From: Clostridiales bacterium
GTDB taxonomy: Bacteria; Bacillota; Clostridia; Saccharofermentanales; Saccharofermentanaceae
Direction of reading: 5' to 3'
Assembly (NCBI GenBank): GCA_017478485.1
Contig: JAFVDI010000010.1
Span: forward strand, 62,001-126,000
Length of the DNA stretch: 64,000 nucleotides
In this document: positions 19,207 through 44,286 of the stretch, in pieces
How positions within the stretch are numbered: the first letter of the stretch is position 1
How the letters are laid out: each line of letters begins with the position of its first letter
Made by a program: the position numbers and the translations under genes
The notes under the pieces: model-generated
What the model saw: only the letters and a program-made list of their open reading frames with translations
Told to the model about the DNA's origin: nothing
Databases searched by the model: none

Positions 19207-19235
19207 TTGACGGGTTAGGGCTTGCTAACTATACT
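19207..19235 (+). promoter_or_regulatory. Promoter of the feoA-feoA-feoB operon
   Basis: TTGACG (19207-19212) and TATACT (19230-19235) with a 17-bp spacer. The spacer is exactly the metal box GGTTAGGGCTTGCTAAC, so repressor binding would cover both promoter elements. Confidence 0.8.
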
Positions 19236-19304
19236 TGTAGTCGGTTATATATGGTTAGCCATAGGTAACCATTTTTATTACACATAAGGTTAGCCGTAGC
19301 TAAC
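19214..19304. promoter_or_regulatory. Three DtxR-type metal boxes upstream of feo
   Basis: Boxes at 19214-19229 (GTTAGG-GCTT-GCTAAC), 19254-19269 (GTTAGC-CATA-GGTAAC, within the longer dyad ATGGTTA/TAACCAT) and 19289-19304 (GTTAGC-CGTA-GCTAAC). All share 6-4-6 geometry and sit 24-114 bp before feoA. The half-site resembles the DtxR/IdeR consensus GGTTAGCCTAACC. Confidence 0.85.
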
Positions 19305-22827: not shown

Positions 22828-22855
22828 TTGACAAAAGAGAGTTTGGGACTATAAT
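22828..22855 (+). promoter_or_regulatory. Distal promoter upstream of the riboswitch
   Basis: TTGACA (22828-22833), 16-bp spacer, TATAAT (22850-22855): consensus hexamers. It fires into the palindrome at 22858-22901. Confidence 0.75.
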
Positions 22856-22857
22856 AC

Positions 22858-22901
22858 ATATAAACGGTTGTTCATATATTCATTTGTTCAAGTGTTTATA
22901 T
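22858..22901. promoter_or_regulatory. Palindromic operator (ArsR/SmtB-like)
   Basis: Outer arms ATATAAAC and GTTTATAT form a perfect 8-bp dyad. Inside are two TTGTTCA direct repeats with an ATATTCAT core, reminiscent of the ArsR-type site at 3862. It begins three bases after the consensus -10, where a repressor would block transcription. Confidence 0.45.
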
Positions 22902-22919: not shown

Positions 22920-22948
22920 TTGACAGATACCATACCGGCTGATAGCAT
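22920..22948 (+). promoter_or_regulatory. Proximal promoter of the riboswitch transcript
   Basis: TTGACA (22920-22925), 17-bp spacer, TAGCAT (22943-22948). Initiation near 22955 would place the aptamer's first stem at the very 5' end of the RNA. Confidence 0.65.
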
Positions 22949-22960
22949 CAATGCACAACC

Positions 22961-23062
22961 CATGAGGGAGTAGCAAGCGTACTGCGTAGCAAGTCAACAT
23001 CCTGGTTAATCCTGGCTTGTTTTAAATTGCGAGACTCATGTATAACTGCGAAGCTATACATG
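22961..23062 (+). promoter_or_regulatory. yybP-ykoY-type Mn2+ riboswitch with competing hairpin
   Basis: Conserved blocks appear in the family's order: GGGAGTAGC (22965-22973), AGTCAACATC, GGCTTGTT, then GCGAGACTC (23029-23037). They are closed by P1 CATGAG (22961-22966) with CTCATG (23035-23040). Immediately 3', CATGTATA/TATACATG (23037-23062) is a perfect hairpin that uses the same bases as the P1 3' strand, a natural switch. Known members sense Mn2+ and control Mn exporters or related membrane proteins. A terminator and a ribosome site follow. Confidence 0.75.
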
Positions 23063-23084
23063 ACGTTTCTCCGAAATTGTTTTG

Positions 23085-23109
23085 ATATGGCTTCGGCCAT
23101 ATTTTTTTT
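23085..23109 (+). terminator. Terminator in the riboswitch expression platform
   Basis: ATATGGC-TTCG-GCCATAT followed by eight T residues, 45 nt after the aptamer. A very stable UUCG tetraloop terminator placed before a GGAGG site. Confidence 0.9.
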
Positions 23110-23119
23110 GGAGGTTTTT

Positions 23120-23194
23120 ATGAGCAGAAAACAAACGCAGTCGCAAGTCTCAGATCGAAACTGTATTTCCCGCGCTTCAGTTAGCACCAGTTAA
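23120..23194 (+). CDS. 24-codon ORF behind the riboswitch (leader peptide or gene remnant)
   Basis: ATG 23120 lies six bases after TTTGGAGG, the position where the regulated gene of a yybP-ykoY riboswitch should begin. It encodes only MSRKQTQSQVSDRNCISRAS plus four residues, with no hydrophobic segment. It could be the decayed start of a lost Mn2+-responsive gene, or a leader peptide. Its stop codon overlaps a metal box at 23180-23195. Confidence 0.4.
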   Translation: MSRKQTQSQVSDRNCISRASVSTS

Positions 23195-23195
23195 C
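23180..23195. promoter_or_regulatory. Metal box (distal) of the ABC operon
   Basis: GTTAGC-ACCA-GTTAAC, one mismatch from the 6-4-6 consensus, 81 bp upstream of a second box. Confidence 0.55.
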
Positions 23196-23260
23196 TAATT
23201 CACCATTAAACAACCCGCAAGCATTGAAAACATTGTTAAAAACAACATATGCACAGGCGG

Positions 23261-23276
23261 TTAGCAGAGGCTAATA
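23261..23276. promoter_or_regulatory. Metal box (proximal) of the ABC operon
   Basis: GTTAGC-AGAG-GCTAAT, 30 bp before the ABC ATPase start. An AT-rich TAATAATATAAC stretch overlaps its 3' end and may carry the -10. Confidence 0.75.
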
Positions 23277-23306
23277 ATATAACTGAAAATATGAGGGAGT
23301 GTTTAT

Positions 23307-24008
23307 ATGTTTATCGTTACAAAGGATTTGAAAAAGGCATACGGTGAGGGCGGCAGCTACATGCAGGTCCTCAAGGGGATCAGCATCAAGGTAGAAAAAG
23401 GCGAGATGTGCGTAATCCAGGGAACGTCCGGCTCAGGCAAGTCGACGCTGCTCAACTGCATCGGAGGCCTGGACACCATCGATTCGGGAAGCGTAAGCGT
23501 TGACGGAACTCTGATCGAGGGCCTCAAAGGCGAAAAGCTTTCCGATTACAGAAGAGACAATCTGGGCTTCATCTTCCAGTTCTATAACCTGGTGCCCAAC
23601 CTCACGGTCAGGGAGAACATTCAGGTGTGCGAGTACCTGACAAGGGACCCGCTCGGGATCGATGAGCTCATCAATGTGCTCGGCCTGACTGAGCACCAGT
23701 ACAAGTTCCCGTCGCAGCTTTCGGGCGGTCAGCAGCAGAGATGCGCGATCGCGAGGGCGCTGGTCAAAAACCCCAAGGTACTCATGTGCGACGAGCCGAC
23801 GGGCGCGCTCGATTCCAAGACTTCAAGGGACATCCTGGTCCTGCTCGAAAAGATAAACAAGCAGTACGGCACAACGATGCTGATCGTCACGCATAACAAT
23901 TCCATAAAGCAGATGGTCGATCACGTCATCTATCTCAAGGACGGCGAGATCCACAAGGATTACTACAACGAGACGAAAGTCCCGGCGGCTGAACTGGAGG
24001 ACCTCTGA
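23307..24008 (+). CDS. ABC transporter ATP-binding protein (MacB/LolD-type)
   Basis: 233 residues: Walker A 'GTSGSGKST' (about 43-51), Q-loop 'FIFQFYNLVPNLTV', signature 'LSGGQQQRCAIARAL', Walker B 'VLMCDEPTGALD', H-loop 'IVTHN'. The subtype pairs with FtsX/MacB-like permeases that work on the envelope side rather than moving small solutes through the bilayer. It is first in a long operon behind metal boxes; the permease starts 1 bp after its stop. Confidence 0.95.
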   Translation: MFIVTKDLKKAYGEGGSYMQVLKGISIKVEKGEMCVIQGTSGSGKSTLLNCIGGLDTIDSGSVSVDGTLIEGLKGEKLSDYRRDNLGFIFQFYNLVPNLTVRENIQVCEYLTRDPLGIDELINVLGLTEHQYKFPSQLSGGQQQRCAIARALVKNPKVLMCDEPTGALDSKTSRDILVLLEKINKQYGTTMLIVTHNNSIKQMVDHVIYLKDGEIHKDYYNETKVPAAELEDL

Positions 24009-24009
24009 A

Positions 24010-27000
24010 ATGGGAATGATCTTATTCAAAAGGGCGCTGCGTGATCTCAAAGCCGGATGGGCGAGATATCTGGCGCTGTCAGTATTGATAATATTTTCGC
24101 TGTTCATCGTCATAAGCCTGATGGGCGCGTCGGTGACGGTCATTGACGGCACCGAAAAGAGCAACGCAGAGCATTGCCGCGAGGACGGCGAGTTCTCGGT
24201 CTTTGTTCCGCTCAGGGACGATGAGGTCAGGAAGATAGAGGAAAAGGGCGTCAAGCTCGAGAAGATGTTTTACGCGGATTACGAGGTCAGCGGCAGCAAG
24301 GTGCTGAGGGCTTTCAAGGTCAGGGAAAACATCAACAGGGTAGGTCTGGTCGAGGGCACGATGCCCGAAAAGGACGACGAGGCGGTCATCGAAAGACGTT
24401 TTGCGGAAGAGAACAAGATCAAGCCCGGGAGCAAGATCAAGCTCGGCGGCAGGGAATTCACCGTAAGCGGTATCGGAGCCGCGCCTGATTACAACAACAT
24501 GGTCAAGAAGGTCTCGGATTCTGTCGTGGACAGCAAGTCTTTCGGACTGATCTTCGTTACGGCTGATGCATACGACAAGCTCTATGCGTCGGGTGCTTCG
24601 CTGTCTTCGGAGGAGTACTACTACGCTTATATGCTGGGCAGCCGGATGAGCGAGGAGGACCTCAAGAAAGCATTGGAAGACATCGAGTTCAAGCTAAGCG
24701 ATATCGATGACGAGTATTTCAAGGAATACTGGGAGCGAATGACCGGCAAGAAGGACGATCTTCTTGAGGGCATCGACAAGCTCAAGGACGGCGCAAAAGA
24801 ACTCAAGGACGGAGCGAAGGAGCTGGCCGACGGAACAAAGGAATATTACGACGGCATGAAGGAGCTCAAGGACGCGGTACCTGATTTCAAGAAGGGAGTA
24901 AAGGATCTTGATAAGGGCGCGGGAGAGCTTGCGAAGGGCGTGAAGGATTACACCGGCGGCGTCAGCAAAGTCGCAAGCGGAACCAATTCGCTCTCGAAAG
25001 GAACGAAAGTGCTGGCAGGCGGTACGAAGGCTCTCGACAAGGGCGCAAAGCAGTACGGCGACGGAGTAAATGCATATGCCGATTCCGCAGAAGCTGCAAC
25101 GAAGAGCCCGAACCCGTATGTTGCGGGCACTGCGAAGGAATTTGCGGGACCCGCAAAACAGCTGGCAAATGTTTATAAGGACATCCAGAAAGGCGTGTCC
25201 GGAGTCAATTCGGGCGTTGTTAATCTTAACGGCGGCACGAAAAAACTCTACAGCGGAATCAAGCTCCTGGACAAGAGCGGCGCGGCTTTGAGAAACGGTG
25301 CAAACTCGCTTCACAAGGGAACGACGGCGCTCAGGAAAGGCGCGAATGAACTCGCTGATGGGATCGATAAGCTCTATGACGGTTCGGTCGACATAAAGGA
25401 CGGCGCAAAGGAACTGGCAGACGGCGCAAAGGAATACGCGGACGGCATGAACGAGTTTGCCGATGAGGCGAATAAGTTCGTTGACGAGTATTTCGACATC
25501 AAGACATCAAACCTGATGGTCTTCATGAACAGCAAGGAGAACCCGAGGGTCGATGCCGCGGCGGATGACGTTCAGATCACTTACACGGCGAGCATCATTT
25601 TCGGTGTGCTGCTGGTAATGCTTTTCGCTTACGTCATATCGGTATTCATCGTGCACACGATCGACCAGGAGAGCCCGGTCATCGGCGCGCTCTATTCGAT
25701 GGGCGTGAAAAGAAGGACGCTTATGCTGAGCTATGTCGCGGTGCCTGTTTTGGTATCGTTCATTTCGGGCGTCATCGGAACGGTGCTGGCGGTGCTCACG
25801 CCGGCCGGAATACCTGCACAGCTGCAGGATTCTTTAAGCTACTATTCGATGCCTGAAGTGAAGATCAAGGTGACGCCGTTCATCCTGATCTACGGACTTG
25901 TGATCCCGCCTGTTACGGCATTTATCGTGAACGTTCTGGTCATCAGAAAGAGGCTTAAGAAAACGCCTCTGTCGCTGCTTAAGAACGAGCAGAAAGCGGT
26001 GCGCGGAAAAGACCTCAAGATCAAGGGTTTGAAGTTCATCAGCATGTTCAGGTTAAGGCAGATGATCAGGGAATTAAGGGCCGGACTTACGGTCATCTTA
26101 GGAATGTTCATGAGCCTTCTGGTCGCGCTGATGGCGCTCAACACGATGGTTTACTGCGGCAGGGTCAAGGATTTCTATGTAAGCCAGACCAAGTACGATT
26201 ACATGTACAGCTACAAATATCCGACGGAAGAGGTTCCTGAGGGCGGCTATGAAGCCGTTGCGGAGAGCCTCAAAAAGGAGATCTACGGATACACGTTCGA
26301 CGTAACGATGTTTGGCATCACGAAGGACAATCCGTTTTTCGATACGGGCGATCTGCCTGACAACGATACCGATGTCGTGATCAGTTCGGCCTTGGCGGTC
26401 AAGTACAACATCAAGGCCGGCGATGAGTTCACGGTCAAGGACGGAAACGGCGGCAGGATGTACGCTTTCAGGGCCGCGAAGATAATAGATTATTCGGCGT
26501 CGCTCGCGATGTTCATGGACATCGGCAGGTGCCGCGATCTTTTCGGAAAGGATGACAAGTATTTCAACGTCGTCTTCTCGGACCATGCACTCGACATCGA
26601 CAGCGGAAGGCTTTATTCCACGGTCACGAAGAGCGACATCGAAAAGTCGGCCGGCATCTACGTCGACATGATGGGCCCGATGATAACGGTAATGTCCACT
26701 GCATCGGCGGTCATCTTTACGGTCGTAATGTACCTGATGGTCAAGATGATGATCGACCGCTCGACGTTCAATATTTCACTCGTGAAGATCTTCGGATTCA
26801 GGAATAAAGAAGTCAGGAAGATGTACCTCGACGGCAACTTCTTCACGGTCGTGATCGGCGCGCTGATCGTCATCCCGCTGTGCAAGCTCATCATGGACTA
26901 CATCTACCCGAGATACCTCGTAAGCAACGTCGGCGTGGGCATCAGCCCGTCATATCCGCCTGAGCTTTTCGTTGCGATCTTCCTGGTCATCATCGGACTC

Positions 27001-27078
27001 TATCTCGTGATAAACACGGTCCTCACAGGAAAGCTCAAAAAGATCAACCCGGCCATAGTGCTTAAGAACAGGGAGTAA
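24010..27078 (+). CDS. Large FtsX-family ABC permease with extended DGAKEL-repeat coiled coil
   Basis: 1022 residues. An N-terminal transmembrane helix (about 16-40) leads to a periplasm-side region. Residues about 257-490 are an unusual low-complexity helical stretch of repeated 'K(E)L.DGAKEL.DG' and 'L.KGTK.L..G' units, as in YhgE/Pip-type and some FtsX proteins. FtsX core helices occur at about 530-660, and again at about 690-715 and 895-1010, giving a duplicated permease in one chain. Such systems usually act in peptide or lipid export or in sensing. The upstream metal boxes suggest a role under low iron; the substrate is unknown. Confidence 0.9.
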   Translation: MGMILFKRALRDLKAGWARYLALSVLIIFSLFIVISLMGASVTVIDGTEKSNAEHCREDGEFSVFVPLRDDEVRKIEEKGVKLEKMFYADYEVSGSKVLRAFKVRENINRVGLVEGTMPEKDDEAVIERRFAEENKIKPGSKIKLGGREFTVSGIGAAPDYNNMVKKVSDSVVDSKSFGLIFVTADAYDKLYASGASLSSEEYYYAYMLGSRMSEEDLKKALEDIEFKLSDIDDEYFKEYWERMTGKKDDLLEGIDKLKDGAKELKDGAKELADGTKEYYDGMKELKDAVPDFKKGVKDLDKGAGELAKGVKDYTGGVSKVASGTNSLSKGTKVLAGGTKALDKGAKQYGDGVNAYADSAEAATKSPNPYVAGTAKEFAGPAKQLANVYKDIQKGVSGVNSGVVNLNGGTKKLYSGIKLLDKSGAALRNGANSLHKGTTALRKGANELADGIDKLYDGSVDIKDGAKELADGAKEYADGMNEFADEANKFVDEYFDIKTSNLMVFMNSKENPRVDAAADDVQITYTASIIFGVLLVMLFAYVISVFIVHTIDQESPVIGALYSMGVKRRTLMLSYVAVPVLVSFISGVIGTVLAVLTPAGIPAQLQDSLSYYSMPEVKIKVTPFILIYGLVIPPVTAFIVNVLVIRKRLKKTPLSLLKNEQKAVRGKDLKIKGLKFISMFRLRQMIRELRAGLTVILGMFMSLLVALMALNTMVYCGRVKDFYVSQTKYDYMYSYKYPTEEVPEGGYEAVAESLKKEIYGYTFDVTMFGITKDNPFFDTGDLPDNDTDVVISSALAVKYNIKAGDEFTVKDGNGGRMYAFRAAKIIDYSASLAMFMDIGRCRDLFGKDDKYFNVVFSDHALDIDSGRLYSTVTKSDIEKSAGIYVDMMGPMITVMSTASAVIFTVVMYLMVKMMIDRSTFNISLVKIFGFRNKEVRKMYLDGNFFTVVIGALIVIPLCKLIMDYIYPRYLVSNVGVGISPSYPPELFVAIFLVIIGLYLVINTVLTGKLKKINPAIVLKNRE

Positions 27079-27080
27079 TT

Positions 27081-27329
27081 ATGTATAAGACAACGCTTAA
27101 GATCGACGGCATGATGTGCGGCATGTGCGAGGCGCATGTGTGCGACGCGGTAAGGAAGGCTGTTCCCGATGCAAAAAAGGTCAAGGCCTCCCGCTCGAAA
27201 AAGGAAGCAACATTCCTCAGCGAGGACAAGGCCGACATTGCGGCACTTGAAGCAGCAATAAAAGAGACGGGCTATGACTTCCTTGGCGGCGAGTCGGAGC
27301 CTTACATTAAGAGGGGGTTATTCGGATGA
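27081..27329 (+). CDS. HMA-domain metallochaperone-like protein
   Basis: 82 residues with the heavy-metal-associated motif GMMCGMCEAHV (GMxCxxC at about 10-15) and the ferredoxin-like babbabb pattern. The Cys pair would bind a soft metal such as Cu+, or possibly Fe2+/Zn2+. It starts 2 bp after the permease stop and overlaps the next start by 4 bp, so it is tightly embedded in the operon. No P-type ATPase is nearby, which leaves the partner open. Confidence 0.85.
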   Translation: MYKTTLKIDGMMCGMCEAHVCDAVRKAVPDAKKVKASRSKKEATFLSEDKADIAALEAAIKETGYDFLGGESEPYIKRGLFG

Positions 27330-43794: not shown

Positions 43795-43810
43795 GTTAGC
43801 AATGGCTAAC
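43795..43810. promoter_or_regulatory. Metal box before the DtxR-type regulator gene
   Basis: GTTAGC-AATG-GCTAAC, perfect 6-4-6 dyad, ten bases before TATAAT (43820-43825), so it lies in the promoter spacer. Indicates autoregulation. Confidence 0.87.
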
Positions 43811-43902: not shown

Positions 43903-44286
43903 ATGCAGGAATCGGGTGAGATGTATCTTGAATCAATACTGGTGCTTTCCCAGAAAGACGAACCGGTAAGGTCCATGGATGTCGCGAAATACCTGGGAGT
44001 GTCAAAGCCCAGCGTAAGCCGCGCGATGGCGATCCTCAAGAACGGAAACTACGTTGAGATCGACAGCCTGGGACACATCACTCTGGCAGACGCCGGACGC
44101 AAGATCGCGGAGAAGATCTACGAAAGGCACGTCGTGCTCACTGAGTTTTTCGAGCGCCTCGGGGTGGACAAACAGACCGCCGAGGAGGACGCCTGCAGGA
44201 TAGAGCACGTCATAAGCGACAAAGCTTTTGACATCGTGAAGGCTCACATAAACGAAAAAGGTCAGACGTCCGGGCAGGAAAAATAA
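43903..44286 (+). CDS. DtxR/MntR-family metal-dependent regulator
   Basis: 127 residues, short like MntR and without the SH3-like C-terminal domain. The winged helix 'MYLESILVLSQKDEPVRSMDVAKYLGVSKPSVSRAMAILKNGNYV' is diagnostic. The dimer/metal domain 'YERHVVLTEFFERLGVDKQTAEEDACRIEHVIS' retains His (ERH), Glu and Glu-His (IEH) ligands seen in MntR/DtxR. It should bind Fe2+ or Mn2+ and then the GTTAGC-N4-GCTAAC boxes, including its own. AGGAGGAATAAGAGAC precedes the ATG. Confidence 0.93.
   Translation: MQESGEMYLESILVLSQKDEPVRSMDVAKYLGVSKPSVSRAMAILKNGNYVEIDSLGHITLADAGRKIAEKIYERHVVLTEFFERLGVDKQTAEEDACRIEHVISDKAFDIVKAHINEKGQTSGQEK

Follow-up and report, generated by a model that had tools for sequence, protein, structure and literature searches.

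A predicted compact Mn2+ riboswitch and DtxR-type boxes stacked before one ABC/FtsX operon in a Clostridiales genome

The closest described relatives of the RNA analyzed here are the manganese riboswitches of the yybP-ykoY class (RF00080), such as those of E. coli mntP and L. lactis yybP. The L. lactis riboswitch was described as a four-way junction with a P4 helix, and a Mn-ON termination logic was demonstrated for it (PMC11087558). The E. coli mntP riboswitch also has P4, whereas the form found at our locus is compact and lacks this helix.

We analyzed a 64,000-nucleotide stretch of DNA from a Clostridiales bacterium (the window), taken from a draft genome of 42 contigs, in which the arrangement of interest agrees with that of four relatives, i.e., across five genomes. 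A preliminary description had placed an aptamer, a hairpin competing with its P1 stem, a UUCG terminator, a GGAGG site, a 24-codon ORF, two DtxR-type boxes and an ABC operon in or directly after positions 22920-23306. Direct reading of the sequence located all of these elements, nearly at the positions given. All features described below lie on the forward strand.

The ABC/FtsX operon and its iron-type boxes

The operon begins with an ABC ATPase of the MacB/LolD/BceA type (ABC_tran; 23307-24008), followed by an FtsX/MacB-type permease of 1022 aa with a long XXXLXXG repeat domain (24010-27078) and, as the next gene of the apparent operon, a small HMA-domain (CopZ-like) protein (27081-27329). 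The combination of an ABC ATPase with an FtsX/MacB_PCD permease is that of a MacB-type exporter. In NCBIfam, the XXXLXXG repeat model was the only one to reach its cut-off for the permease, and none did so for the ATPase. A sequence comparison of the permease with solved structures was uninformative, a designed coiled coil being the sole match. Homologues of the window-type operon were found in 45/85 genomes of the genus (E 1e-60). Their upstream regions carried at least one GTTAGCN4GCTAAC-type box in 25 of 30 cases, typically two at -47 and -128, where 0.03 per 220 nt would be expected, and no riboswitch was found upstream of the window-type ABC homologues examined outside the window lineage. 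The preliminary description suggested that dual Mn/Fe control would be new for this ABC class. Iron-type control is usual for the class, and it is the stacking of both that is special.

Upstream of the window operon, box 1 (GTTAGCACCAGTTAAC, 23180-23195) and box 2 (GTTAGCAGAGGCTAAT, 23260-23275) each have one mismatch to GTTAGCN4GCTAAC, and box 2 is 47 nt upstream of the ABC start, a spacing shared with relatives. The window contains 12 such boxes against 1.3 expected, a number reached by 0/100 shuffles, and also encodes a DtxR-family metalloregulator (43903-44286), which together show that the two boxes noted earlier are real. Genome-wide, 17 sites with at most one mismatch were found, compared to 3 for a reversed control. 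The palindromes are enriched before iron genes: three boxes (19214-19304) that share the motif of the ABC boxes precede feoA-feoA-feoB, and further sites precede the ZIP gene (48895) and the DtxR-family gene, a candidate owner of the boxes with a box of its own (43795-43810). Other sites are near a second feoB (33948), a TetR-ABC cluster (38948) and DUF3793 (46892). The segment 19214-48831, with its 12 boxes, is a probable dense iron regulon.

Because the boxes sit at feo genes, the natural reading is that their repressor would respond to iron. The DtxR family includes MntR as well as DtxR/IdeR, and its members may sense Mn instead of Fe, which would allow the boxes to be bound by a Mn-sensing, MntR-like repressor, so that both layers of control read Mn. 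However, the same boxes stand before feoAAB, and others near the second feoB and the ZIP gene, as for an iron regulator, and we consider a Mn-sensing repressor unlikely.

Further upstream, a promoter with a 12/12 match to consensus (TTGACA-16-TATAAT, 22828-22855) is followed by a palindromic, CATATGAACA...TTCATATG-like segment at 22849-22890, which is sited at the promoter and is possibly an operator for a TetR-type repressor. A segment of this kind also occurs upstream of the ABC ATPase in relatives without the riboswitch (L117, L124, L130, L131, L144, L145). The riboswitch has a promoter of its own, TTGACA-17-TAGCAT with TG ahead of the -10 element (22920-22948), which recurs at an equal distance in L002 and L003.

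A compact aptamer and a predicted terminator switch

Homology, alignment, a covariance model and covariation identified positions 22961-23040 as a compact yybP-ykoY (Mn2+) aptamer without P4. In the window RNA, P1 (CAUGAG, 22961-22966, with CUCAUG, 23035-23040) encloses, in order, the conserved L1 (GGGAGUAGC), L3 (UCAACAU...UGG) and 3' GCGAGAC core, together with P1.2 (22973-22976/23027-23030), P2 and P3.1 (22990-22993/23016-23019). The four-way junction P1-P4 is missing and a fixed 8-nt linker takes the place of P4, as in 157/172 copies, where it is mostly GUUUUAAA-like; for this reason we refer to the compact aptamer as a variant of yybP-ykoY. L3 reads CAUCC in the window versus CAUAC in many copies, a difference that could affect affinity.

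RF00080 (Rfam 15) gave no match to the window at any threshold tried, even E = 10, an outcome that was to have refuted the aptamer according to the preliminary description. However, the validated E. coli mntP riboswitch (L264:3462-3558) itself scores only 41.6 bits against the gathering score of 45, so that this cut-off cannot refute the window aptamer and the proposed test is invalid. The gathering score was reached by 0/18 related loci, although several gave significant matches with lower scores (27.7 bits, E 2.5e-4; 30.6 bits, E 5e-7). It seems that the gathering score is set too high, so that the compact form of Clostridia goes undetected. As the RF00080 result was not decisive, homology was used for class assignment.

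BLAST found homologues of the aptamer in 50/115 genomes of the family. In an alignment of 52 aptamers, GGGAGUAG, GUCAACA, UGGCUU and GAGACUC were almost invariant, and RNAalifold recovered P1, P1.2, P2 and P3 with compensatory changes. A covariance model built from these 52 relatives (R1), which includes no proteobacterial sequence, matched 66/188 genomes of the order and also detected the leader of E. coli mntP, with 29.7 bits and an E of 9.7e-7 in 8 kb. Furthermore, an anchor-based count, independent of any alignment program, showed that P1, P1.2, P3.1 and P3.2 pair above shuffled partners across 174 distinct copies; this control leaves relatedness in, and the count is to be read as support rather than as a p-value. 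The R1 match to E. coli mntP, the covariation and the partner genes discussed below thus support the proposed yybP-ykoY-like aptamer, and from the sequence we assign 22961-23040 to the Mn riboswitches of the yybP-ykoY type, as a compact, P4-less form that is predicted to bind Mn.

The aptamer is followed by a 9-bp anti-aptamer hairpin (23036-23063) that, from folding and sequence, takes the 3' strand of P1, and by an intrinsic terminator consisting of a UUCG hairpin (23085-23102) and a U run to 23109. A 10-bp antiterminator (23049-23095) is predicted from folding between 23049-23058 (CGAAGCUAUA) and 23086-23095 (UAUGGCUUCG), i.e., the terminator's 5' arm together with its loop. The first of these strands is free to pair only once it is out of the anti-aptamer hairpin, which needs the P1 3' strand. 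The same design was found in 44 loci, where the antiterminator competition involves a mean of 8.7 contiguous bp versus 4.1 for shuffled sequences, although the sequences differ among groups; one compensatory change was seen in the antiterminator of L006. The leader fold has a z of -2.64. Calculated folding energies were -42.0 kcal/mol for the anti-aptamer hairpin with the terminator, -37.9 for the aptamer with the antiterminator and -32.2 for the aptamer with the terminator. By these ligand-free energies, the terminator state is favored in silico over the antiterminator state. This strand competition, together with the energies, indicates that P1 held by ligand should give read-through, and the window leader is modeled as a Mn-ON transcription terminator switch in which P1 competes with terminator control. 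In the mntP-linked group, a second design leads to an equal outcome: there, the 3' strand of P1 doubles as the terminator's 5' arm.

We considered whether the riboswitch might be a relic, with all transcripts stopping at 23109 and the ABC operon run solely by an iron-controlled internal promoter. The gene once served by the leader's start codon is gone, leaving the 24-codon ORF, and orthologous ABC operons function without a riboswitch, as this explanation would have it. A candidate internal promoter (TGCACA-17-AATAAT, 23250-23278) overlaps box 2; its 9/12 matches are alone not above chance, and such a promoter would be weak by consensus. However, the five genomes show almost no change in the aptamer, the anti-aptamer hairpin, the antiterminator or the terminator but clear divergence of the spacer and the short ORF, suggesting selection on the switch, and a search for a second terminator between 23109 and the ABC gene found none. 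A relic therefore seems distinctly unlikely.

Partner genes and the origin of the stacked arrangement

The compact form occurs in at least 117 stretches of named genomes, mainly from Clostridia (Lachnospiraceae, Oscillospiraceae and others). Among the 117 matches listed, the downstream gene was MntP-type in 66, a P-type ATPase in 16 and ABC in 8, and the rest include UPF0016-like and CaCA-like genes. By eye, compact Mn riboswitches were seen ahead of CaCA exchanger-like or UPF0016-like genes at L158, L165, L166, L207, L215, L231, L253 and L255. In other families of the order, the partners are MntP or P-type ATPases. Such a set of partners is that of Mn riboswitches, and partner genes of Mn homeostasis are seen across the aptamer family but not at the window locus. 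On a separate note, the Rfam family SSRC10 (Streptococcus sRNA 10) matched a mntP-linked Mn riboswitch (L044:2999-3110) with 36.6 bits, below the SSRC10 cut-off, and SSRC10 itself may be a Mn riboswitch leader.

The diversity of partners, along with the loss of P4, would also permit a change of ligand, such that the compact aptamer senses another divalent ion, and variants of this kind are expected among yybP motif RNAs (PMC7266159). However, the L1, L3 and 3' GCGAGAC core is nearly invariant and matches that of E. coli mntP, and the commonest partner among the matches listed is the Mn exporter family MntP. We regard a switched ligand as quite improbable and retain Mn as the predicted ligand.

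Within the genus, the leader is found ahead of MntP, which has its own leader type, and, most often, ahead of ABC/FtsX operons. The window genome's own MntP gene (L095, G000:C39:46371-46856) has no Mn riboswitch upstream, whereas relatives in the genus have one. In a sister genus, the riboswitch stands before a MntP-like ORF that, at ~454 aa, exceeds twice the usual length (L026, L030, L033, L035, L036, L038-L040, L042). More divergent yybP-ykoY-like RNAs were also observed ahead of ABC/FtsX operons (L100, L104, L283), which suggests that the pairing may have arisen or persisted several times. The literature searched, which left out the two 2015 founding papers, contained no report of a Mn riboswitch with an ABC/FtsX operon; the novelty of this partner class is thus likely, though not proven.

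The usual operon of the genus leader is another ABC/FtsX operon, which encodes an ATPase beginning with MEENFLEIRDLKKSF and a permease of ~900 aa and has the leader directly upstream. Close orthologues of this other permease (at least 64% identity) were found in 31 genomes; 27 of these carry the RNA upstream, and in the remaining four the upstream region contains box-like sites or DtxR-type boxes. The window operon differs from it, with 57% identity between the ATPases and 26% between the permeases over the C-terminal half. The combination of leader, short ORF, two boxes and window-type ABC operon was found in five genomes (G000, G091, G037, G069 and G016). The other permease is present in G091, G008 and G063 and absent from G000, G016, G037 and G069, which are drafts, so that absence is not absolute; G091 keeps both ABC/FtsX operons, each with a switch.

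Since the window class of operon normally has boxes only and the leader normally stands before the other ABC/FtsX operon, the stacking can be read as two control regions that were joined. The close relative G024 encodes a permease that is 98% identical to that of the window, preceded by an ATPase gene of 84% identity and a different promoter, with no riboswitch. On the feo side the two sequences are 94% identical up to 22609, where upstream similarity stops. This pattern suggests a recent exchange of both the ATPase gene and the control cassette. A search for a plasmid origin of the cassette gave no match.

The 24-codon ORF (MSRKQTQSQVSDRNCISRASVSTS, 23120-23194) follows the GGAGG site at 23110-23114 and ends with a stop codon inside box 1. 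An ORF of 20-24 codons and the strong GGAGG are kept in all five genomes. Their leaders, including GGAGG...ATGAGC, differ very little from the leaders of L006-L010, in which this ATG starts the other ATPase (MSEQEKKF). The peptides agree over the first codons only and then diverge between genomes to unrelated C-termini, with a frameshift in one of the five, and we therefore read the short ORF as the stub of a lost gene, probably of a former ATPase gene. For the same reasons, and because the start region matches an ATPase gene start in L006-L010 and five genomes are few, a functional leader peptide or regulatory small protein, which the retained GGAGG and ORF might suggest and which had been offered as an alternative earlier, is highly improbable. 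As to the other proposal made then, that a cognate gene was lost and that the switch now gates read-through into the ABC operon, the loss is borne out and gating is most likely, but the lost gene was another ABC/FtsX operon and not MntP or TerC. Both of these candidates were rejected, as in the genus it is ABC operons that follow a leader with this platform, MntP having a leader type of its own.

Proposed regulation and comparison with known systems

Altogether, we consider it quite probable that a compact Mn-ON switch and DtxR-type boxes act on one ABC/FtsX operon, by way of a cassette that was recombined from the other ABC/FtsX operon. The cassette would first have driven that operon of the genus; recombination would then have joined it to the two-box operon, with the 24-codon stub remaining. 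Without Mn, the anti-aptamer hairpin would capture the P1 3' strand, the terminator would form and transcription would halt near 23109. With Mn present, the docked aptamer would keep P1, the freed 23049-23058 would form the antiterminator with the terminator's 5' arm, and polymerase would read through into the ABC/FtsX operon. At low Fe, a DtxR-type repressor would leave the boxes and expression would rise, as it would through the leader at high Mn. The operon would thus be raised both by high Mn and by low Fe.

Dual Mn/Fe control of the operon is well supported by these sequence comparisons, and the transporter is probably made at high Mn, low Fe or both. Across the genus, the Mn switch and iron-type boxes replace each other before ABC/FtsX operons, and this interchange of inputs suggests that such exporters serve under high Mn, low Fe or both. 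A more tentative idea, toward which we lean somewhat less than away from it, is that ABC/FtsX exporters form a Mn/Fe-balance module of Clostridia with interchangeable inputs, stacked here so that the operon reads the ratio of Mn to Fe.

Within the literature searched, this transporter class is new for a Mn riboswitch. The P4-less Mn aptamer, found across Clostridia, is missed by Rfam 15 at cut-off, and the locus offers a natural case of a predicted RNA sensor (Mn) and a putative protein sensor (Fe) on one operon. It also makes the substrate and role of uncharacterised ABC/FtsX exporters testable, these being for now a matter of inference.

Compared with known systems, the window RNA shares with yybP-ykoY riboswitches (E. 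coli mntP, L. lactis yybP) the L1, L3 and 3' GCGAGAC elements, the use of P1 as the switch helix, the Mn-ON termination logic predicted here and, elsewhere in the family, the MntP and P-type ATPase partners. It differs in the 8-nt linker in place of P4, the score below the RF00080 cut-off and the ABC/FtsX partner. The boxes share with DtxR/IdeR boxes of feo operons a GTTAGCN4GCTAAC palindrome over promoters, which is also found at the window feoAAB, but here they lie downstream of a riboswitch terminator, within one control region. Finally, the transporter resembles MacB/LolCDE/BceAB exporters in combining an ATPase of the MJ0796/LolD/BceA group with an FtsX-type permease, and differs from them in the long XXXLXXG repeat domain of that permease.
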